The notes under the pieces were generated by a model, which had not been told where the DNA came from, made no database searches, and was given only the letters and a program-made list of their open reading frames with translations. This document shows, in pieces, positions 2,335-60,303 of a DNA stretch of 64,000 nucleotides. The position numbers were made by a program, and so were the translations under genes. The first letter of the stretch is position 1, and each line of letters starts with the position of its first letter. Source of the DNA: Syncephalis fuscata (taxonomy: Eukaryota; Zoopagomycota; Zoopagomycetes; Zoopagales; Piptocephalidaceae); NCBI GenBank assembly GCA_025786725.1, contig JAHLTZ010000026.1, positions 1 through 64,000 of the forward strand. Reading direction: 5' to 3'.

Positions 2335-2779
2335 TAAAGTAATGTTTGGCTTAATCAACTCTAGTGCATTATTAAGTTTTTTGTTATTAATGTTGCATAT
2401 TCAACTAAAAATAATAATTTATAATAATTCTAGCGTATTGAAAACATTTAACTTTGCTGTACTACTATTGTAATGCTATCGATGTGTAATCTATAAACAA
2501 AACATAGTATGAGAACACATTGGACATTTGACATAGATTGGTTATCGTTAAACTAGTAGCCGAACTATAACGCAACAAGCCTTTGCTAATTTATTATCAA
2601 TTGTCTTTATTTATAAAAAGACCAGTCAGGCACGTGAGCACAGCTTTTATTTAGAACCTTCAACTTGTATTCTGCAGTCCCTGTGCTTTTTACTTTCTTT
2701 TCTTCAAATAATTTACCTTCTACATCATTACTAGTTCATCCAACATAATATTAAAAGTACTTGCTATTTAAGCAAAAGT
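2335..2779. other. Intergenic, no gene seen
   Basis: AT-rich spacer between the MFS remnant and the arrestin-like gene. It ends in a pyrimidine-rich stretch (2680-2720) just upstream of the arrestin ATG, as expected of a fungal promoter. No ORF or RNA gene is supported. Confidence 0.5.
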
Positions 2780-4498
2780 ATGCTAGGACTACCGATATTT
2801 ATTAAAGTAAAAATTGAACCAGAGCGTGGTGGACAAGACAATGACGGCGTTACTTCTGTACACTCATTTGTAGAAACGCACTCGCCACCGCCGGGATATT
2901 TACACCGCCAAAGCATAGATCAATTTCTTTTTGATCAACCATCGGAAGATGGACCGGTTGCACCAAATAATAGCAACGGAGAGTTATCGCATCCACTTCA
3001 GTTAAATCCTTACGCTACACGATCAGCTTCTAATTTAGATTCACTTCGGCCACCCGATTACTTTATCAACGATAAGGGTGTATCTAATCGAGATCCGTTA
3101 ATAGTAGGTATGCTTGGTCGAACACCATCTTACATCTGTGGTCGTGTGCGCGTTTCCTGGAAAGCATCCAAACCAACTGGTAATTCTACCAACTCAAGCG
3201 GTCAATGGAGTAGTAGTGAATCGCCCTATCAGCCATTGCAGTTAAAAATACTTTTTTCTGGTGTTTTATACGTATTCGGTTCTAAAAAGTATGTTAATGC
3301 GGAAAATTCATTTATACGAAAAGCTCCTATACGTAAAAATATAATTGATAAAAAGTTTGTTATATGGAAGGAGGGAAGTGCAGAAGGTGCGCGCAATGCT
3401 CATATATATCCTGTATATGATTTTGCTAAAAAACAATACACATTATTGGTGCCATTTAAAATTACTATTCCAGATCCTGTTGCTAATAGCTATGTATCGA
3501 CATTCGCCTTAGTAAGCTATTCGCTAAAAGCCACGCTTAACTATCAATTTAGCAGCTTTTTCTCCAATTCACTTAGTCTTAAAACCTCAAGTTCTCGTGA
3601 TTTGAAGATAAGACGGTGGCCTGGCTTTGAACAGTCTGAAAATGATACATCCGTCGAAGCGCGCAGCATAGGACAGCAGGCGTCACAAATGGGCTTTGTG
3701 TATAATGTTCGTATCCCACACTCATATTATGCTGGTGGTGACACGGCCAAGATAGACTTGTGTGTTGGCCCAGGTCTTATAAGTTTATTGAATACCGACT
3801 CAAATAACAATATTAATAATGTAGATCAAACAGATAATCCATTCCAATCAACATCGCAACAAACATCGGTAATTACAGCACAAAGTAGCCAAAATTCCGG
3901 TGATCTTCCACCAATGCCACCAGCTTACACTGTTGCAGCAGTTAACTCATTAGAGCCAGGAGTAATTGCAGACTTGCAAACACCCGATACGGTAACAGAT
4001 AATTCCGCTGTAAAACCAAGTGTTGAATTAAAACGTATAATTGTAAAGTTGGTGCGTCGAGAAAAGGTTATTTATCTCGATTATTTTGGAAAATCCTCAA
4101 GTACAATGGCTGAAATGTCTTTTGATGCACCACCTTACGATCCTGTAACAAAAACATACAAGCACACAGTATTTCTTACTATTCCCCGGGTTAATTCACC
4201 AACACTTCGTACAGTTGCAATACATACCAACTATTTTATAACCGTAACTATGGTCATGCGTGGGACGTCGAATACAACGGCCGAACTCCCGATAAAGTTA
4301 ATGCCGATTACACGAGATGAACGTCGTATGCCAGCAAACACAGAATATGGCTTGCCACTATGCGCTCAATCTGCAAACGGCCAATCAATAAACGGAGGTG
4401 GTGATAGCAATCTTGCATCATCATCAATGCAGCAATCGTACAGCCAAGGATGGGATACGGCCTACGTTGAACCGCCACCACCTTACTCTGGCGAGTAA
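2780..4498 (+). CDS. Arrestin-like (ART/alpha-arrestin) trafficking adaptor
   Basis: Single exon, 572 residues, ATG start. Alpha-arrestins recruit Rsp5/Nedd4 ubiquitin ligases to plasma-membrane transporters to drive endocytosis. The arrestin N-lobe runs from about residue 110 (YICGRVRVSWKA, later FALVSYSLKATL, a typical arrestin strand). The C-lobe includes ELKRIIVKLVRREKV and YFITVTMVMRG. PY motifs that could bind WW domains are PPAY near residue 378 and PPPPY at the very C-terminus (EPPPPYSGE); an SPPPGY lies near residue 36. Low-complexity linkers rich in Ser, Asn and Gln separate the lobes. The cargo cannot be inferred. Confidence 0.85.
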   Translation: MLGLPIFIKVKIEPERGGQDNDGVTSVHSFVETHSPPPGYLHRQSIDQFLFDQPSEDGPVAPNNSNGELSHPLQLNPYATRSASNLDSLRPPDYFINDKGVSNRDPLIVGMLGRTPSYICGRVRVSWKASKPTGNSTNSSGQWSSSESPYQPLQLKILFSGVLYVFGSKKYVNAENSFIRKAPIRKNIIDKKFVIWKEGSAEGARNAHIYPVYDFAKKQYTLLVPFKITIPDPVANSYVSTFALVSYSLKATLNYQFSSFFSNSLSLKTSSSRDLKIRRWPGFEQSENDTSVEARSIGQQASQMGFVYNVRIPHSYYAGGDTAKIDLCVGPGLISLLNTDSNNNINNVDQTDNPFQSTSQQTSVITAQSSQNSGDLPPMPPAYTVAAVNSLEPGVIADLQTPDTVTDNSAVKPSVELKRIIVKLVRREKVIYLDYFGKSSSTMAEMSFDAPPYDPVTKTYKHTVFLTIPRVNSPTLRTVAIHTNYFITVTMVMRGTSNTTAELPIKLMPITRDERRMPANTEYGLPLCAQSANGQSINGGGDSNLASSSMQQSYSQGWDTAYVEPPPPYSGE

Positions 4499-6899: not shown

Positions 6900-7163
6900 A
6901 CACAATTAAGATGGAACCACATGTTTATTACTACAAGTTTGCATACTTGATTGTATACAGACAAATACAGACTTGTTGGTAATATAAGAAATCCATCGAT
7001 TAAGGGTTGAATAAACCAGGGCATTGGCTGGGACTTGGTAGCTGAGTGGGCTGAGTGGTGTAGTTGTCAAATGATCTTGATTCTTGCCGAATATATACCT
7101 AAAATATATATAACTCGCAGTCCAATCATACTATCAGTGCCAATATTTTGAATGCGCCAGTTA
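6900..7163 (-). other. 3' flank of microexon gene A, homologous to that of gene B
   Basis: The block around 6908-6960 (TGTTTATTACTACAAG...) and the TTGCCGAATATATA segment near 7086 match, with divergence, the region downstream of gene B (57,660-57,860). This conserved non-coding 3' tail suggests the two genes were copied as whole units. Confidence 0.55.
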
Positions 7164-9045
7164 TTCTATAGTCATGAGCACATATAAAATATTATATGGT
7201 TAGCGTATGAGTTAGCATTATATGATTCTACTTACAATCTATTAATACAAGGCATCAAACACGTAAAGTGTACAGTATATATTTAATGCATCGTCAATAA
7301 TATACAGTATTACTTACGAGCTATTAATACAAGTCATCAAACACAAAGAATATGATGGTTGTTTAACGTATAGCCAATTAATATACAATGCCACTTACAT
7401 TCTATTATGTTAAGTTATTGATAAGCACAATACAAGTATATAATTAGTGTATAGCCAGTTAATATACAATACCATAATTGTTAAGTGAAACCCCCCTCCC
7501 TGTTTTTTAGGTAAAACAATATGCAAGCCAGTTTAAACAAGTAGGTCCAAAAACAAGACCTTGGCCAGAATAGCCAAGGAAAAACAATTAGGACCAACTT
7601 CAAGAGAATAGTGCTGTGTAGCACCATTCAAAAAAAGATGGTCCCGCATGAGATCTATATGGACCGGATTTTGCGCAAAAACGTAGCAGTCCACCCGTTA
7701 AAAGTTTGGAAAAGTCCAAAAATAGTGGGAAGCAGCGCAAATGCTTTAATTATGTGCAGCGGGGGCTCACAAGCTTTTCAAAATAAAATAAAAAATATAA
7801 TATAATATTACTTACTGCCTATTAATAAAAGTCATCAAACACGCAAAATGTACGGTATGTATTTAGTGCATAGTCAATTAATATACAATAACACTTACCC
7901 TCTATTAATACAAGTCATCAAACACGTAAAGTGCACGGTATATGCTTAGTGTATAGTCAATTAATATATAATACTACTTACGACCTATTAATACAAGCCA
8001 TCAAACACACAAAATGTACAAATATGTTTAGTGCATAGTTAATCAATATATAATGCCACTTACCAACTATTAATACAAGTCATCAAACGCAAAAAGTGCA
8101 CAGTATATAATTAATGCATAGTCAACTAATATACAATACTACTTACAACCTATCAATACAAGTCACCAAACACACAAAATGTACGGCATATGTTTAGTGC
8201 ATAGTCAATCAATATATAACATTACTTACCAACTATTAATACAAGTAATCAAACACGCAGAATGTACGGTATATATTTAGTGCATAGTCGAGCAATATAC
8301 AATGTCACTTACAAGCTATTAATACAAGTCATCAAACACGCAAAGTGCACAGTATATATTTAGTGCATAGTCAATCAATGTACGATATCACTTACGAGCT
8401 ATTAATACAGGTTATCGAACACACAAAGTGCACAGTATATATTTAGTGCATAATCAATTAATTATTACTATTGCTATTTACCTCCTATTAATACGAGTAA
8501 TCGAACACACAAAGTGCACAGTATATATTTAGTGCATAATCAATTAATTATTACTATTGCTATTTACCTCCTATTAATACGAGTAATCGAACACACAAAG
8601 TGCACAGTATATATTTAGTGCATAATTAATTATTATTCATATTGTTATTTACCTCCTATTAGTATAGATAGGCAATGTTAGTATCAGCAATATAATTTGT
8701 TTTATATTAAACCTACTTTTAACCAATGGTGCTATTTTATTTGTTTTACATTAAAAACAACAATTAATTATTATGCCAATAACTATGTGCAATCAACAAT
8801 TACCATCTATTTGCCATGTCCATTATTTGGATAACATACGATAAGCGCTGGAATAATGAGTCAATAATTGCGACTTACCATCTAATATTATCGTTGGTTA
8901 AACATAATGTTAGCAAACATTTCAAATTTCAAATTTATGACTACAACATACCACGACGAACCAAAGTTGGCTTAGCATCCACCATGGCTGTACTGGCTAC
9001 AAGGGCCACGAGGACGGTGCAGACGACGGCAATAAAAAGCTTCAT
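7164..9045 (-). CDS. Microexon gene A: secreted peptide precursor built from 3-nt exons
   Basis: Exon 1 (9045-8952, 94 nt) encodes a signal peptide (LFIAVVCTVLVALVASTA) ending KPTLVRR, then one base. Sixteen 3-nt microexons follow, at plus coordinates 8879, 8804, 8653, 8568, 8482, 8396, 8313, 8230, 8147, 8064, 7982, 7899, 7816, 7399, 7318 and 7236 (first base of each triplet). Each is preceded by an AG acceptor, usually TATTAATAG, and followed by GTAAGT, GTAAAT or GTAATT. The terminal exon begins at 7165. In phase 1 the triplets read DDGGGAPFGFGQGKSH, then TAA straddling the last junction. The product is 47 residues, a peptide precursor with a Kex2-type dibasic site. Function is unknown. The splicing model rests on sequence only; one intron carries a ~330-bp insertion. 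Confidence 0.66.
7201..8660 (-). repeat. Tandem array of ~83-bp intron units (gene A)
   Basis: Unit spacing is mostly 81-86 bp. On the minus strand each unit reads donor, a conserved block containing TATGCACTAAATATATAC and GTGTTTGATGACTTG, then the TATTAATAG acceptor, then a variable triplet. The three units at 8482-8655 are nearly identical, so they are recent copies. Spacing differences are not multiples of three and fall within the intron part. Confidence 0.9.
7475..7804 (+). mobile_element. ~330-bp insertion with A-rich tail inside a gene A intron
   Basis: The regular array is interrupted here by unrelated, more GC-rich sequence (GAAACCCCCCTCCCTG..., ...GCAGCGGGGGCTC) ending in an A-rich tail (AAAATAAAATAAAAAATATA). 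The 417-bp spacing replaces the usual ~83 bp, so one intron contains it. An A-rich 3' end suggests a SINE-like retroposed insertion on the plus strand. I see no A or B boxes and no certain target duplication. Confidence 0.45.
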
Positions 9046-33919: not shown

Positions 33920-35319
33920 TTTAATGGTTTTAAATAATAGTAGTATTATGAGTGATACTTGGTATAGATAAGTTAAAAAACGCAGTAACAATGTGGATAC
34001 TGGTAATAATTTAGTAGTAGCGCTTTTACAGCTGTGTAAATAGAAATAGCTCCTAGTAAGTATGAGAAATAAGAGTAGTGTTCGGTAGACTAAGTGAACT
34101 ACAGATGTAATGTTAGTGCCGATACATACATTTCTGTTCGCAATTTATTCTATTTCATGAGTTCAGGAGATAGAAAACAATGTATATATCCCTTGGCAAT
34201 AACATTTCAAAAGGGGATTGTACAGCCATGCAATAGGTGTAAACCAATTTTCCTAACCAGGTTAGCCTCATCTATTATTTGTTAAAAAAAACGTGCTTCA
34301 GACATCAGGGTGTCTATATTGCATCATTGAAATTATTATGCAGGCGGAAGCTCCTTTTATTGTTAGCAAGTAGCGCCCTTGCATAAAATCTAACCAGTTG
34401 TAAACCCCCTTTATTCTTGTATTGCCGGTCGGTGTCAGTACAAACTCAACGCCAATAGTTAGCCGTGTTGTTCAATTCAAGTCTGCACGTTGTATCCCAT
34501 CAAATTATAAGTATTTTATTACTGTATATTAATTATTACTAGCGTAAGACTATCAACAAATAGATTTACATTAGTATATATATATATTAAAAACATATTA
34601 TCCACTAAATTAATATTAATAAAATGTAAGATAAAGCAGCTTTTGTTTATAATTGTATTAAAACATTTAGATTGTGGTTAGTTTAAAATGAATTAGTATT
34701 TATTAGCACGATACATATTATAATGTTACCATTATTTTTCAAAAGTATCGGAAACCGATTTAGCTTTGAACAATTATTGACTAATGCCTAGCCCACTGCC
34801 ATTTGATTTATAAATAAAAGCTACAGTATGACTAATGACCGGTGGCACCAGAAAGAATAGCATGCTTTATGATTGAAAAATGCTGTGATGCATTACGCTG
34901 CAAACAGTGCCTGCTATACAACTAATTTTCTACGGCTTTTAGCAGACTGCCATTTGAAATAGCAGTGTTCGTACAATGTGTACAATAATATGTTCAGATA
35001 CAATTCTGTAAATTCAAGGCGATGCTAGTCTTCTGCAGCGTGATCGCAGCATCAATTGAATATCACATGAGTCAATCAGTATATCTCATGATTTAAAAAA
35101 CTATAAATGGTTTACGCACAGCACTATATATTCATACAAGTCATATTATTTAATGCATTAATATTTCAACAATATAATAATGCTTTATTTATGGTGCATG
35201 TAAATATGATCATTATACTTTTCAAAAAGGAGAACAAAAACTCAATGATTTTATTTTTATTGTTTCTATAAGAATCGTATGTTTATTTTGCAATAGTATA
35301 ATACAAGTCAATGTATATT
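33920..35319. other. Intergenic, no gene seen
   Basis: AT-rich sequence with short non-coding ORFs only. It is bounded on the right by the inverted gene B fragment. Confidence 0.45.
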
Positions 35320-36038
35320 CAATAGCCTGCATCAATAGATAGTAAGTAAAACTGTGTATTGACTATCCGCTCTAAACATATACCATGCATCTTGTATGTT
35401 TGATATCTTGTAATGATAGATCGTAAGCGACATTGCATATTGACTGACTATGCGCTAAATATATATATCGTGCATTATGTGTATCTAATAACTTGCATTA
35501 ATAGCATGTAAGTGGCATTATGTATTAGTTTTCATACTCTAAACACGTAGCATTCAATGTGCGTGTTTATTTTTTATTAATAGCATGTAAGCGGTATTAT
35601 ATATTAATTGTTTCTATACTAAGCATATATCATACACTGTTTGTGTCCTAATATTTATATTACCAGTCTGTAAGCAATGTTATATATTCCTGATTTATAC
35701 ACTAACTAGATGTGATATGTTGTGCATATTCATAAACACAGTCTAACGGGCTTTTCAAGGCATTGGTATTGGCAATGTGATTAGACGACTAGTTTGACAC
35801 ATTCCAGCTATACATTCGGCAAAACTCAAATCCATTGGCAATTGCCGTTCAGTCCATTCACATATCAAATTTTTAGCAATATTTTGGTTTATCCGCTTTC
35901 AACCAATAGCGCGATTATATTACTGGCAAACCTGCATTCAATTGTACCTATTCAACTATGCTAGCTTGTAGTAATAAACATATGGTTTTATTTTAGCTAT
36001 AATTGACTGAGTTTTCACAACCATGTTTACGGTTTATT
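35320..36038 (+). pseudogene. Inverted 3' fragment of microexon gene B
   Basis: This ~715 bp is a near-identical reverse complement of 57,623-58,340. On the plus strand it keeps the last five microexon units (donors after 35,351, 35,432, 35,514, 35,594 and 35,675 approximately), the terminal-exon start (CACAG then TCTAAC) and the 3' tail. Exon 1 and the first 21 units are missing, so it cannot make the secreted peptide. The near-identity points to a recent duplication. Confidence 0.85.
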
Positions 36039-36696
36039 TTAATTAATGATTAACAAATATTAATCACTTAAAAATGCCAATATTAAACCTGTGCAAATAT
36101 ATTGTTTTAGTTTTCAAGATATTCTGACTTATTTGTAGCAACATTCTTATTTAAATAATAATTTATTGTGTGATATTTTAGCCATGCATATCTACAATGT
36201 AGTAAAGTGTATTATTAATAATATCAAATCTATTATCATACAGCCAGTATCACTTTATATTGGCATTATTATATTAACACTTCAATTTCCAATAATTGAA
36301 CGGTACATACTGCCATTTCATTGCTGCTGAGTGAACTAAACAGTATAATAGCATTATAAAAATCTAAATATAAACTAATTAGTAAAAAGTTTGTTACTAA
36401 ATTTCTATTCATTTCTAAATGATGTGGATTGTTTATAGTACAATTAAAATGAAGCACCAATATTGTTTATTATTTACTTTGGCTGTACATATTATTATTA
36501 AACAAAAGCTATTATGAGACCAAAAATAATGAGCAAAGAATAAACAGCGATTATAATAATTAAATTGGTTTCCTTAAATATTTCTGAATATTACATTATA
36601 GTTGCAAGTTATGGAAGTAAATGATGTATTTTAATAATAGTAGATTATTGATATATGCGTTTGCTAATAACTGATAGCTTCATAGCTTGATAGCTT
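36039..36696. other. AT-rich intergenic, no gene seen
   Basis: Similarity to the gene B 3' flank stops abruptly near 36,038. The rest is low-complexity AT with no supported gene. Confidence 0.45.
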
Positions 36697-51747: not shown

Positions 51748-52140
51748 TTAACAGGCTACATTATTTTGTTGCCAAAAACTAAGAAATATGGCACCTTGAC
51801 GTGCCTCGCACCATCGATTAGATTGAATGCCATTTAGATTGATATATACGCTTAATGCACTGACAAGGTTTAAGTAATTGGCTGGGATGAATTCGCCGCC
51901 GCCATCTTGAGCTATCCGTGCGCAGGAAAGCCACTCGCAGTGCATTACTTGTTTAACTGGTGTTTTAGTCGCGGCCATACTTTCTCTGATACGATTTACG
52001 GCCAATGTTGTGTCTGAAACGGAATTAAAAGCGCAAAACTTGCCATTACCACAAACAATGTCTTGGGCGTTGACTAAGAGGGTAGATAAGCCTGTACAAA
52101 GCAGGACACAAATAAGAATAATGCTATTAATGATATTCAT
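51748..52140 (-). CDS. Small Cys-rich secreted protein (paralogue 1)
   Basis: Single exon, 130 residues. The start is the ATG that gives a signal peptide (IINSIILICVLLCTGLSTLL then VNAQ). The mature part has VCGNGKFCAF, HCEWLSCARI, VYINLNG and SFWQQNNVAC, with six or seven cysteines probably in disulfides. It shares these blocks with the protein at 61134-61801 (HCSWRTCASI, VYINLYG, RYWQQVPEAGNC). The family is unknown to me. It could be an extracellular effector or adhesion factor, without direct evidence. Confidence 0.75.
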   Translation of the reverse strand: MNIINSIILICVLLCTGLSTLLVNAQDIVCGNGKFCAFNSVSDTTLAVNRIRESMAATKTPVKQVMHCEWLSCARIAQDGGGEFIPANYLNLVSALSVYINLNGIQSNRWCEARQGAIFLSFWQQNNVAC

Positions 52141-52869
52141 CGTATTTGGAAAGACTATATTGCAGTAGATGAAAGGGAAAACTGGTACTGGCATAATTGT
52201 ATGGCTTGTGCTATTCGATGAATATATAAATAGACAGACAGACAAATAATTGATGTGTAAGTTTTGCAAATGACTCCGCAAGAGAAAATACTCTCATTCT
52301 CGTGACCAATAGCAGTAACAATGGTGTTTAATAATAATAACATTTGTAGCAGAGTTAATGTAAAATTCCCAAGCTGTGACAGTTACATAGTAGCCAGTCA
52401 TAGCAAAGGTAAACACTGTTTTTTTGAATCATTAAATACAATAACTAAATACTCTACAACAATAATGCTTATATATATTAACATTATTAATATTGTTTAT
52501 CTATCTATTGATTATGGCTATTACTAAAATAATAAACCATTTATTGTCCAGTATGTATATATCCTCTATCCACCTATATCATTCCTATTCTATTTCATAT
52601 TGCTATATATCATTTTATGCTATACCGAATACATTATATTGTTATAGATTTAAAATACATTTAGCTTGTTAAACGAATAAAGTGAATAAGTTGAGATTCA
52701 TAAATAAGAAAGCTAGAACCAAATAAAATTGTTTTAAATAGAGAAAGTATAGAAGAATATAAAACGATATGGAATAGAATGAATATACAATGGGAAAATA
52801 CAATAAATGGTCTTGAAGCTATAGTACATATAGCGCAATGAGGAAAATGAGTAAATTATACTAGAACAT
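52141..52869. other. AT-rich intergenic, no gene seen
   Basis: Upstream region of the Cys-rich gene, then low-complexity AT sequence. No supported gene. Confidence 0.4.
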
Positions 52870-55945: not shown

Positions 55946-56333
55946 TAACATGTTTTTATTCGTTTATGGCGACATATAATAGCATTTTAAAAGCTGCGTC
56001 ATCATCACTCGGTGCTTAATTACAAGTATTCTCATTAATGGCAATAATAGTTTTTAATAAATGGATAATTTTTACTATCTCAGCTCCATACGTTACCATG
56101 CCACTCAGAGGTAAAGTTTAAAGTATGCTACCAAGGAAGCACGCTGGTAGTAACAAGGAAAATGACTGTTGTCTTGGAATTTGTCCTCATGGCAATCGGC
56201 TACTTTTCTATATGAATAAAAACATATAAAAGTTGTAAACAATTTATTTACAGTATCATTATTTTTGCTTAAAGTTGTCTGCATTTGCATATTCTATTTT
56301 ATAGAAATATTTTATATCAACTAGTAGTTAAAC
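55946..56333. other. Upstream region of the CAP-domain gene
   Basis: AT-rich. I looked here for an upstream signal-peptide exon and found none that splices convincingly. Confidence 0.35.
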
Positions 56334-57149
56334 ATGGCTATGATTGGAACAGGACTAGGCATAGCGAGCAATTTCAGTCCCGCGCAACTTGTTTGTATAA
56401 TCAATAAGGAGCGTGTAAACTATGGACTTAATCCATTGGGACTATTGCCTGGTTTGAATAGAGCTGCGGAATACCATAACGGCTTTATGGTTAAAAATCA
56501 TAATTTGGCCATTCAGCTACCTGGAGAAACAAACTACATTGACGAAATTATACAAAAAACGCCCAATTTGTCATGGCAACGCTTTGGCATTTTGGTGGGT
56601 CAAGGATTTCCCAATGAGGCTAATTATGTAAAGTATATGTTGCAAGACGAATTGTCACGCCCAGTTATTCTAGGCGACTTTTCACACTATGGTGCAGCCA
56701 AGATTGATGCTCAAGATGGCCCGTGGTGGACGCAAGAATTTACAGATGATGGACGTCAGCACGACTTCCCAGTTTGTCCTGGGCTATCGGATGTTCCGAT
56801 AGCTACTCCTATCATTGAGCCAGCACCGTTGCCATCACCTACACCTACACCATCACCACCATCACCACCTGCACCAGTTGCTACATCTGTCCCTCTTACT
56901 CCCGAGCCCGTAGCTCCCAATCCAACAGCAACACAGCCGGCCAAAGAGCCAGTAAAGACGCCAGCTCCAGATACTACTGAGCCATCACCACCACCACCGC
57001 CACCACATTCACGCCGCATTCACTTCCCTCCGTCTGCGCTTCATGCTTCATCCTTCGCAGGTTCTTCAAAGAACAAGAAAGTAGACACAATGGCAGAAAC
57101 GACAAATACTCACAATCGGTGGATTAAAAGAAAAGGCCACAGAGGATAA
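56334..57149 (+). CDS. CAP-domain (SCP/PR-1-like) protein with proline-rich tail
   Basis: Single exon, 271 residues. The CAP domain covers about residues 1-150: VCIINKERVNYGLNPLGLLP, GLNRAAEYHNGFMV, an FSHYGAAKI block and WWTQEFTDD. CAP proteins are mostly extracellular and bind sterols or ligands. The central tail is very rich in Pro, Thr and Ala; the end is basic (NRWIKRKGHR). No signal peptide is visible at this ATG, which is odd for the family. Either an upstream exon is missed or the protein stays inside. Confidence 0.82.
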   Translation: MAMIGTGLGIASNFSPAQLVCIINKERVNYGLNPLGLLPGLNRAAEYHNGFMVKNHNLAIQLPGETNYIDEIIQKTPNLSWQRFGILVGQGFPNEANYVKYMLQDELSRPVILGDFSHYGAAKIDAQDGPWWTQEFTDDGRQHDFPVCPGLSDVPIATPIIEPAPLPSPTPTPSPPSPPAPVATSVPLTPEPVAPNPTATQPAKEPVKTPAPDTTEPSPPPPPPHSRRIHFPPSALHASSFAGSSKNKKVDTMAETTNTHNRWIKRKGHRG

Positions 57150-57640: not shown

Positions 57641-58340
57641 AACATGGTTGTGAAAACTCAGTCAATTATAGCTAAAATAAAACCATATGTTTATTACTAC
57701 AAGCTAGCATAGTTGAATAGGTACAATTGAATGCAGGTTTGCCAGTAATATAATCGCGCTATTGGTTGAAAGCGGATAAACCAAAATATTGCTAAAAATT
57801 TGATATGTGAATGGACTGAACGGCAATTGCCAATGGATTTGAGTTTTGCCGAATGTATAGCTGGAATGTGTCAAACTAGTCGTCTAATCACATTGCCAAT
57901 ACCAATGCCTTGAAAAGCCCGTTAGACTGTGTTTATGAATATGCACAACATATCACATCTAGTTAGTGTATAAATCAGGAATATATAACATTGCTTACAG
58001 ACTGGTAATATAAATATTAGGACACAAACAGTGTATGATATATGCTTAGTATAGAAACAATTAATATATAATACCGCTTACATGCTATTAATAAAAAATA
58101 AACACGCACATTGAATGCTACGTGTTTAGAGTATGAAAACTAATACATAATGCCACTTACATGCTATTAATGCAAGTTATTAGATACACATAATGCACGA
58201 TATATATATTTAGCGCATAGTCAGTCAATATGCAATGTCGCTTACGATCTATCATTACAAGATATCAAACATACAAGAGGCATGGTATATGTTTAGAGCG
58301 GATAGTCAATACACAGTTTTACTTACTATCTATTGATGCA
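57623..58340 (-). repeat. Gene B 3' segment duplicated in inverted orientation at 35,320-36,038
   Basis: This stretch contains the last five microexon units, the terminal exon and the 3' tail of gene B. It matches the reverse complement of 35,320-36,038 almost base for base. The pair makes a ~715-bp inverted repeat about 21.6 kb apart. Confidence 0.85.
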
Positions 58341-60303
58341 GGTTATTGGATATGCATAGTTCATATCACATGGTTAGCGTATAGTTAATTAGTAGACTGT
58401 GTCGCTTACTAGCTGTTAATACAAGTTGTTAAACACACAGATCGTATAATGTATGCTTAGTATATAGCTAGTGAGTATACAATGCCACTTACAATCTAAC
58501 AATATAAGGTATTGGCCATACACAATGCATGGCATGTACTTAGCATGTAATTAGTGAATATATAATATCACTTACTAGCTATTAATATGTGTATTAAATA
58601 CACGTGGTTCATGGTATGTGTTTAGTATATAGGTAGTTATTATACAAATACACTTACAAACTATTGATATAAATTATTAGACACGCACAATGCATGGTGT
58701 ATGTTTAGTATATAGTCACTAATATACAATGCCACTTACTCCCTATCAATACATATTATTAAATATACATGGTGCATGGCATATGCTTAATATATAGCTA
58801 TTGCATACACAATGTCACTTACCAGCTATCAATACAGGATGTTGGGCATTATATGCCATGTCATATGTTTAATGTATAAATAAATGATATACAGTATCAC
58901 TTACGAGCTATTAATACAAGTTGTCAGACACAAACAGTGTATGGCATGCGATTAAAGTACAACTCGTTAATATACGATTCACTTACAAGCTATTAATCAA
59001 AATGATTGAACACACACGATACATGCCATATATTTAGTGTATAGTTAGGTAATGTACAATGCTATTTACCATCTATTAGCACAGATATTGCACACACACG
59101 CAATGTATGATATATTAATATTGTATAGCTAATTAACATACAATATCACTTACTTTCTATCGATGCAAATTATTAACCATATAATGCACGCCATTTTTTA
59201 GTAGATAGCTAATAGTATGCAATGTCACTTACGAGCTAATAATCCAAAGTATTGACCACATATGGCACATAGTATATGATTAGTATATAGCTATTAGTTA
59301 TAGAGCACAACTTACGGGCTACATTGCAAGTTATTAAACACAAACCGTGCATCTTATGTGTTAGTATTAGTTAATTAGCATGAAATGCCACCTACTGGCT
59401 TTGATACAAGTTGTTAGACACGCACAGTGCATAAAATATGTTTAATTTTATAATTAGTTAATACACAATGCTATTTACCATCTAGTGACATAAGATTTGA
59501 ATTATTGTAGCACATTTCATATGTTCAGCACATGGCTGACCAATATGGGATGCCACTTACCAGCTATTAATACAAGTTGTTAAAAGTTACAACACATGTC
59601 ATATAGTTGGCGCATGTCTAATTAGTATACAATTCCGCTTACCTCCTATTAATAAAGTCATTAGAGATTACATCACATGCCATATATTCAGCACATGGCT
59701 GCTTAATACAAATACTACTTACCAACTATTAATACAGGTTGTTAGGCATAAACAGTGCATGGCATGTAGTTAAAGCATAGATAGCCAATATACAGTTCAC
59801 TTACAGGCTAATAATACAAGATATTAAACATATATGGTGCATGGCATGTATTTAATATGTAGATAATAAACATACACTGCCACTTACATGCTATTAATAC
59901 GAGTTAGTAAACACACATCATCACATAGCTTATGCTTAGTGTATAGCCAAGTAATATATAGCGCTACTTACATTCTAATGCTGTTTTATTAAACGCACAC
60001 GTTGCATGATATGTGTTTAGTGTATCATTAATTAGTATATAGTTATACTTACCCACTATTGATGCAAGTTATTAGACATACAAAATAAATAGCGTATAAT
60101 TAGCGCATAAATGATTAGTACATAATGCTACTTACTTTTTATTAGTGTTATTTAGTAATGTAATAGCGTTTAACTAAATGAATAACTATCTTTTGTAATG
60201 ACAACATACCGCGACGAACTAGGACTGGTGTAGCATTCACCATGGATGTAGTAGCCACAAAAACTACAATGATAGTACAAACGGTGGCAATAGAAAGCTT
60301 CAT
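57922..60303 (-). CDS. Microexon gene B: secreted peptide precursor built from 3-nt exons
   Basis: Exon 1 (60303-60210, 94 nt, same length as in gene A) encodes a signal peptide (SIATVCTIIVVFVATTS) ending TPVLVRR. Twenty-six 3-nt microexons follow, first base of each at plus 60053, 59972, 59888, 59805, 59723, 59643, 59561, 59479, 59396, 59316, 59233, 59154, 59070, 58987, 58905, 58823, 58740, 58658, 58576, 58493, 58410, 58327, 58246, 58161, 58082, 57999. Each has an AG before and GTAAGT, GTAAGC, GTAAAT or GTAGGT after. The terminal exon starts at 57926. In phase 1 the triplets give 27 stop-free residues opening VESSFGAD, containing an N-A-S glycosylation sequon and ending NNPSFF, then TAA. Total 58 residues. 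A decayed unit at 60,130 lacks its acceptor. Splicing is predicted, not shown. Confidence 0.7.
57990..60140 (-). repeat. Tandem array of ~82-bp intron units (gene B)
   Basis: Twenty-six complete units and one decayed unit, spaced 79-85 bp, each carrying donor and acceptor sequences around a variable triplet. The units are more diverged than in gene A but keep the same internal order of blocks (ACTAAAC/AATATAT, then GTGT, then TATTAATAG). Confidence 0.9.

Follow-up and report, generated by a model that had tools for sequence, protein, structure and literature searches.

A gene on the minus strand of the window (the whole 64,000-nucleotide stretch of DNA analysed here, positions 1-64000 of contig C179 within the 28.95 Mb assembly of Syncephalis fuscata) belongs to a large family whose tandem arrays are, with a probability of about 0.93 in our estimate, real chains of spliced one-codon exons making secreted prepropeptides. 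In such genes exon 1 would be the export and processing module and the microexons the variable payload. The earlier note on this DNA had proposed a secreted-peptide gene of one-codon exons, a proposal now supported by an exon 1 shared genome-wide and by stop avoidance that is specific to one phase. The window locus alone was insufficient because 27 stop-free codons are not rare, and the genome was needed to decide. The anatomy of the genes, the homology of their ends, phase-specific selection on codons that span introns and the exclusion of AG upstream of acceptors are direct observations; from that selection we infer splicing itself, and processing, secretion and biological role are likewise predictions from sequence.

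Anatomy of the window gene

The gene runs from 60303 to 57922 and consists, in order, of a 94-nt ATG exon 1 with donor GTATGT, 26 units of the form AG-NNN-GTARR and a terminal acceptor with its exon start, AG/TC-TAA:

60210..60303, minus strand: exon 1, 94 nt, putative signal peptide and short pro-region ending VLVRR, donor GTATGT, phase 1; a homologous exon was matched at all 150 places scored genome-wide, an initial look giving 342 candidates
60053..60055, minus strand: microexon 1, TGG
59972..59974, minus strand: microexon 2, AAT
59888..59890, minus strand: microexon 3, CAT
59805..59807, minus strand: microexon 4, CCT
59723..59725, minus strand: microexon 5, TTG
59643..59645, minus strand: microexon 6, GAG
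59561..59563, minus strand: microexon 7, CTG
59479..59481, minus strand: microexon 8, ATG
59396..59398, minus strand: microexon 9, CCA, weak sites (AAAG / GTAGGT)
59316..59318, minus strand: microexon 10, CCC, weaker acceptor
59233..59235, minus strand: microexon 11, CTC
59154..59156, minus strand: microexon 12, AAA
59070..59072, minus strand: microexon 13, ATG
58987..58989, minus strand: microexon 14, CTT
58905..58907, minus strand: microexon 15, CTC
58823..58825, minus strand: microexon 16, CTG
58740..58742, minus strand: microexon 17, GGA
58658..58660, minus strand: microexon 18, TTT
58576..58578, minus strand: microexon 19, CTA
58493..58495, minus strand: microexon 20, ATT
58410..58412, minus strand: microexon 21, CTA
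58327..58329, minus strand: microexon 22, ATA
58246..58248, minus strand: microexon 23, ATC
58161..58163, minus strand: microexon 24, CAT
58082..58084, minus strand: microexon 25, CAT
57999..58001, minus strand: microexon 26, TCT
57922..57926, minus strand: terminal exon start TC-TAA, with the final codon and the stop; most other members whose terminal exon was recognised have a homologous NN-TAA
57690..57921, minus strand: 3' UTR, with an AATAAA seen by eye at 57695-57690; all 40 scored places match the 3' UTR of paralogue L019 (255 candidates)

This agrees with what had been claimed from the letters alone: 26 units with exactly three bases between AG and GT, a 94-nt putative signal-peptide exon ahead of them (60303-60210) and an in-phase terminal TC-TAA (57926-57922). 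Two of the 26 units have weaker sites: CCA has AAAG as its acceptor and GTAGGT as its donor, and CCC has the acceptor GTAG. Both were skipped by the gene-model program, and the reading frame is unaffected. Units lie at 60055 to 57999, spaced by 79-85 bp without regard to threes, as the earlier note had said (mod-3 classes 4/10/11 among 25 spacings). The first intron, of 154 nt, holds a unit-like stretch in which AA replaces AG. The joined exons make up 177 nt, only 177 of the 2382 bases from ATG to stop, and read MKLSIATVCTIIVVFVATTSMVNATPVLVRR VESSFGADATPQNASPGISNSNNPSFF followed by a stop; the peptide is polar and Cys-free, and the stop-free chain and N-A-S glycosylation sequon that had been read in it hold.

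Exon length across the genome

The pattern GTAAGT-N(55-85)-AG-NNN-GTAAG has 3342 matches in the whole assembly versus 50 for the reversed pattern. At other exon lengths the same pattern gave, against its control, 67/49 (k=2), 48/63 (k=4), 54/50 (k=5) and 129/47 (k=6), hence close to control at k=2, 4 and 5, where some matches are visibly array units, and raised at k=6. For YAG-Nk-GTA[AG]G, counted in L001-L028 and the window (with some overlap), there were 658 matches at k=3 and 5-54 at each other k from 0 to 30; the highest of these others, k=15, partly fits the 15-nt exons of L021 and L025. When a chaining program was left free to choose exon lengths of 1 to 30 nt, 355 of 360 exons came out at 3 nt (15 gene models, four near-identical pairs included), the five exceptions being 2, 2, 7, 21 and 22 nt. 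Since both this and the 3342 versus 50 matches point the same way, an array arising by chance is excluded. A PWM of 315 distinct units has exactly three uninformative positions flanked by conserved sequence; these units were pre-selected for TAG...GTAAG, and the information therefore lies only in the three free positions and in the remaining bases of the flanks.

Looser chaining thresholds added exons of 1-29 nt, which were judged false (one run already penalised lengths other than 3). The final gene models (n=29) allow only 3, 6, 9, 12 and 15 nt, with thresholds set after translations had been seen, and are therefore no evidence on exon length. 'Exon' units of 1 or 2 nt occur in L009, L018, L036, L052, L053 and L056; dropping them in L036, L053 and L056 restores the frame to the terminal stop, and such units are probably skipped in splicing.

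Introns and splice sites

Array introns have a mean length of 77 nt (n=510, kept at 60-92 nt), the longest called in the final models being 243 nt. Between -30 and -4 of the acceptor, these 510 introns contain 12 AG, compared with 372 expected from column shuffles (minimum 333). Over a wider intron block the ratio to expectation is 0.09 for AG, 0.37 for GG, 0.58 for GA and 1.63 for TG. Donors are almost all GTAAGY, with some GCAAGT or GTAGGT; so strong an intronic donor fits the lack of an exonic contribution, because the three exonic bases show almost no constraint on composition. Among 8 paralogue pairs, 0-3.7% of the splice dinucleotide sites differ. Judged by these features, the array introns look functional.

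Shared ends of the family

The arrays sampled came from 20 regions fetched around pattern and DNA matches, plus the window, chosen without regard to stops or Cys and not at random. A homologous exon 1 (at least 17/31 residues) lies upstream in 18 of the 22 arrays of at least 5 units, no more than 485 nt away in 17 of those 18 and at 1247 in L024. The four arrays that lack an intact homologous exon 1 are L013, L028, the truncated copy in the window and L017, where it is recognisable and broken. The exon-1 peptide is of a hydrophobic MKLSIAVVCTIVVALVA...ALVRR type, and a search with it matched at all 150 places that were scored, an initial look giving 342 candidates; such numbers for the family are no more than bounds or candidates, and haplotype copies may be among them. 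Phase 1 is fixed by the length of exon 1, 94 or 97 nt.

At the other end, a terminal acceptor was recognised in 18 of the 29 models, by patterns written from tails already seen, and a phase-1 stop follows within the first two codons in 16 of these 18, which include two near-identical pairs. L014 and L052 have the stop a few codons later, and the L038 model stops already inside the array after DPCDPFHPCTS, which resembles the ELCDPRNPCKP plus stop of L037. Downstream of the terminal exon, a 3' UTR is conserved across members. Broken or interrupted copies also occur (L009, L017, L027, L039, L055); L009 looks broken. Fetched loci that yielded no model of at least 4 units had no intact exon 1 (L013, L017, L028), too few units (L024, L039, L043, L048), no GT after exon 1 (L055) or no array (L023); L045 and L046, with 4 units each, fell below the limit of the phase test described below.

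Codons assembled across introns

Nearly every codon in the phase of exon 1 spans an intron, and shuffling the order of units within a gene is therefore a fair null. The test set consisted of models of at least 6 units from which the second of five near-identical pairs was dropped (L009, L012, L014, L025, L027), giving 22 genes and 641 codons. Phase 1 held 2 stops in 641 codons against a shuffled mean of 25.8 (minimum 13 in 2000 shuffles), and 63 Cys against a mean of 33.3 (maximum 47). Phase 2 codons, which also span introns, were like the shuffled ones (49 stops versus 49.6, 24 Cys versus 23.1); phase 0 lies within units, outside the reach of a unit shuffle.

Because the models had been tuned with translations in view, the stop test was repeated on unit chains fixed before any array was translated (20 chains, 311 units, 291 junction codons). 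Phase 1 had 2 stops in 291 codons versus 13.8 (minimum 5 of 2000) and 20 Cys versus 13.4 (P 0.011), and phase 2 had 24 stops versus 25.0. Taking out L017, L018 and L021 left 1 stop versus 9.8 (minimum 2) and 19 Cys versus 13.0 (P 0.014). For the 11 all-3-nt genes without L018 and L021 there was 1 stop versus 6.4 (P 0.0025), and their Cys excess was not significant (12 versus 8.6, P 0.08). Stop avoidance is robust and the Cys excess varies with gene choice: adjacent triplets are joined and translated in order, now or recently. L017, with its broken exon 1, has 0 stops in 22 junction codons, and this stop-free array may reflect recent breakage.

Predicted peptides and intronless relatives

Following the RR, L010, L015, L026, L041, L052, L053, L054 and L056 spell short Cys-rich peptides (L026 from 39 three-base exons and one doubtful 12-base exon), and L019, L037, L038 and L040 spell two-Cys peptides. 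L018 has 83 three-base units that read as an extended, helix-like chain in which a single stop occurs close to the end. L021 and L025 contain a long TPTPISIWTP repeat with in-frame 15-nt exons; a repeated block of four exons (3, 3, 3 and 15 nt) would yield TPTPISIW(T/K)P many times over, duplications of the block giving protein repeats across introns.

Intronless members also belong to the family; they share exon 1 with the array genes and, for the most part, the 3' end as well, and 11 of their sequences were used. One of them, L029, reads GGKSPQCTSCMATKCKKGMNASICNDICKKECSA before its stop, and its six-Cys pattern is shared with the array peptides GLEECWACMDECTTIYTTAECRKNNYCAKQCRK of L054 and DPIQCAACVENCKKTGSKKCRHDCNRYVGDCE of L056, each likewise closed by a stop. 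An HMM of the six-Cys type, built from 7 of the 11 intronless sequences picked for that pattern, scored 5 of 21 array peptides higher than their own unit shuffles (L015, L052, L053, L054 and L056; P 0.02 or less each, uncorrected); the other 16 of 21, the window gene included, were not above shuffles with this HMM of seven intronless peptides. In a tree built from exon 1 together with the 5' flank and the 3' UTR (18 array and 11 intronless sequences) the two forms are intermixed, intronless L050 grouping with arrays L041, L056 and L037 (support 0.97) and intronless L031/L047 with array L052 (0.92). On the simplest reading, the intronless members probably arose repeatedly, as cDNA-derived copies that lost all introns. 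Microexons were more diverged than introns in the two most diverged of 8 paralogue pairs (0.48-0.66 versus 0.24-0.25), which we do not use as proof of fast evolution because the unit register may be shifted in the alignments.

Further copies and neighbours in and near the window

The window holds a second member of the family:

8952..9045, minus strand: exon 1 of the second member (MKLFIAVVCTVLVALVASTAMVDAKPTLVRR)
7161..8881, minus strand: its array, with one-codon exons between 8881 and about 7241, an insertion that interrupts them at about 7490-7805, and a terminal AA-TAA located by eye at about 7165-7161

The inserted element, TTTTGAAGAGCTTGTGAGCCCCCGCTGCGC... at about 7490-7805 of the window, adjoins a T-rich stretch and is also found, whole or in part, inside array-gene introns of L009, L016, L027 and L039. 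At approximately 35311-36040 (plus strand) lies a 730-bp truncated copy, 99.5% identical to the 3' end of the window gene and in the opposite orientation, with the last five units and the terminal exon and without exon 1. Copies of the window gene also occur at L003 (C179 near 86380) and L004 (C117 near 8441), 98.6% and 98.4% identical along about 2.18 kb; the 22 triplets that were compared agree apart from a change of ATT to ATC in L003. A neighbouring gene at 2777-4498 (plus strand) is 99% identical to a deposited S. fuscata protein located on contig C57 (571,950 bases), not C179; near-identical stretches are therefore present more than once, and some family copies may be uncollapsed haplotypes, in which case counts could include one locus twice. 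Open frames lie beside the window gene at 56328-57149 (plus strand) and 51748-52293 (minus strand), the latter with a hydrophobic stretch. Pfam gave no family for 4 of 6 window proteins, these two frames included, and Rfam at gathering thresholds found nothing in the 64-kb window.

Alternative explanations

The arrays could be vestigial, exon 1 being normally spliced straight to the terminal exon and the units being leftover tandem intron duplicates. Such splicing would be tolerated, given that exon 1 ends in phase 1, that NN-TAA is in frame even with zero microexons and that skipping single units shifts no frame. However, selection is seen on codons that exist only when adjacent microexons join, splice dinucleotides differ at no more than 0-3.7% of sites in the 8 paralogue pairs, AG is excluded upstream of internal acceptors and the arrays spell six-Cys peptides, all of which makes vestigial arrays very improbable. 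That the units are tandem, about 80 bp long and alike within genes would also suit a satellite or tandem repeat that codes for nothing and owes its conserved AG-NNN-GT block to recent duplication, but a satellite does not account for three free positions amid otherwise conserved sequence, for a phase-specific coding signal or for arrays bounded by a homologous exon 1 and a terminal exon. This explanation was rejected, the phase-1 stop depletion being a coding constraint, and we give it next to no credence.

Two further proposals bear on how the arrays are used and how they arose. Each 3-nt exon is a frame-neutral cassette and, as 1- and 2-nt units are probably skipped in some genes, one-codon exons might be individually optional, so that one gene gives many peptide variants; the order-dependent stop avoidance points instead to a dominant full chain, and we think general optional inclusion unlikely. 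We are just as doubtful of its bolder form, in which well over a hundred loci would be reprogrammable peptide cassettes, their intron-plus-codon units gained, lost, duplicated or skipped with the frame intact, and regulated single-codon inclusion would produce combinatorial secreted peptides. As to origin rather than present function, introner-like elements might have invaded an intronless gene codon by codon, as opposed to growth by tandem units: introns within a gene resemble one another, intronless members exist and such elements are reported in fungi (PMC4457414). Against this, 18 of 22 arrays follow the same exon 1 and none of the remaining four has it intact, L021/L025 show multi-unit tandem duplication, intronless members nest among array members and 23 of 45 gene pairs show positive collinearity of their best-matching introns (p<0.05, uncorrected); invasion codon by codon is a possibility to which we attach little weight.

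A model for one-codon exon chains

We thus favour serial splicing of the one-codon exons into one full chain. Counting against it are the lack, by eye, of any predicted array peptide in the 16 deposited relatives, the 16 of 21 array peptides that do no better than shuffles with the HMM, the weaker Cys excess in the chains fixed before translation, the units with 1- or 2-nt exons and the broken or interrupted copies. Exon 1 would encode a signal peptide and a pro-region ending, in most members, in a dibasic RR, which we take by its motif to be a Kex2-like site. As the dibasic site lies at the end of exon 1 or one codon earlier in most members, the microexons would encode the mature peptide almost exactly. 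This peptide, strongly variable among members, would be spelled by exons of 3 nt (occasionally of 6 or 15 nt), between which lie introns of about 78 nt whose GTAAGT donor is near-perfect, and, the introns being in phase 1, each codon would combine the last base of one microexon with the first two bases of the following one. The two sides of the spliceosome can hardly bind at the same time to sites only three bases apart, and the introns would for this reason be removed successively, each step leaving NNN before the next GTAAGT. We hypothesize that splicing proceeds by intron definition: once an intron is gone, the three exonic bases would abut the next GTAAGT, in a ratchet-like manner. Array length would change through gain or loss of intron-plus-codon units with the frame kept. 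Fungi of the genus Syncephalis live as parasites of other fungi, and the variable peptides may serve this mycoparasitic life.

If this model is true, these would be extreme split genes, with 10 to 80 one-codon exons in series across a large family and dozens of introns that must go to spell one short peptide, posing a challenge to a spliceosome that would have to pair sites three bases apart dozens of times consecutively. Added or lost units cannot break the frame, which suggests a possible route of secreted-peptide diversification, and a mycoparasite seems to maintain many secreted-peptide genes of this kind. Intronless sister genes are available for comparison with the array genes.

Deposited annotation

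The annotation seems to have missed much of the family, as 16 deposited relatives compare with at least 150 exon-1 places, some of them maybe haplotype copies. Checked by eye, these 16 contained no predicted array peptide, and only four were matched to a locus or reading: P0004 is intronless L049; P0005 matches intron-like sequence of L041, L052 and L055 and therefore looks like read-through; P0010 carries, beyond exon 1, DGKSQLLTHYSSAYRM, the sequence obtained when exon 1 is joined to microexon 1 and reading runs on into the following intron (judged against the second gene of the window), a point in favour of the model; and P0013 maps in part to L048, downstream of its exon 1. P0015, P0017 and P0018 share the exon-1 peptide and differ widely in the mature sequence attached to it, which suggests that exon 1 is a common export module.

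Comparison with known systems

A search of open-licence PMC papers found no report of 3-nt exon chains or of the S. fuscata peptide family. Schistosoma micro-exon genes (MEGs) have symmetric exons and a 5' signal-peptide exon. The earlier note had brought up these genes, aptly as analogy and not as kinship: a profile search with 8 family proteins, which needs shared 5-residue words, returned 16 proteins, all from S. fuscata, and no kinship with MEGs. Secreted products (predicted here), chains of short exons and variable proteins are common to both. The chain of short symmetric internal exons is present in the S. fuscata arrays (355/360 exons of 3 nt), and the 5' signal-peptide exon has a putative counterpart in the hydrophobic MKLSIAVVCTIVVALVA... 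exon. In contrast, S. fuscata internal exons are nearly all exactly 3 nt and the arrays are tandem repeats, whereas PMC10526429 gives MEG exons of 3-81 bp in 35 genes; MEG introns reach 5 kb, a long-intron trait absent from the arrays with their introns of about 78 nt.

Aphid bicycle genes have about 17 exons on average, in phase 2, and one megacycle gene exceeds 100 microexons, according to PMC9168663. They too are a fast-evolving family of putative effectors with many small exons of the same phase. The phase differs, exon 1 of the S. fuscata arrays setting phase 1 and not phase 2, and the fungal exons are single codons that would spell a short mature peptide, six-Cys in several members.

Introner-like elements sit in many different genes, whereas the S. 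fuscata introns, in the 22 arrays examined, are serial within one gene family. Such elements are reported to form families of multiplying introns in fungal genomes (PMC4457414). Finally, spliced exons of 1-3 nt are reported for Arabidopsis APC11 (1 nt), homothorax (3 bp) and Fusarium CYP621A (1 nt) (PMC4674806, PMC7392893, PMC12940212). Those ultra-short exons are single and belong to ordinary genes, whereas in S. fuscata dozens in series would carry the mature product itself.
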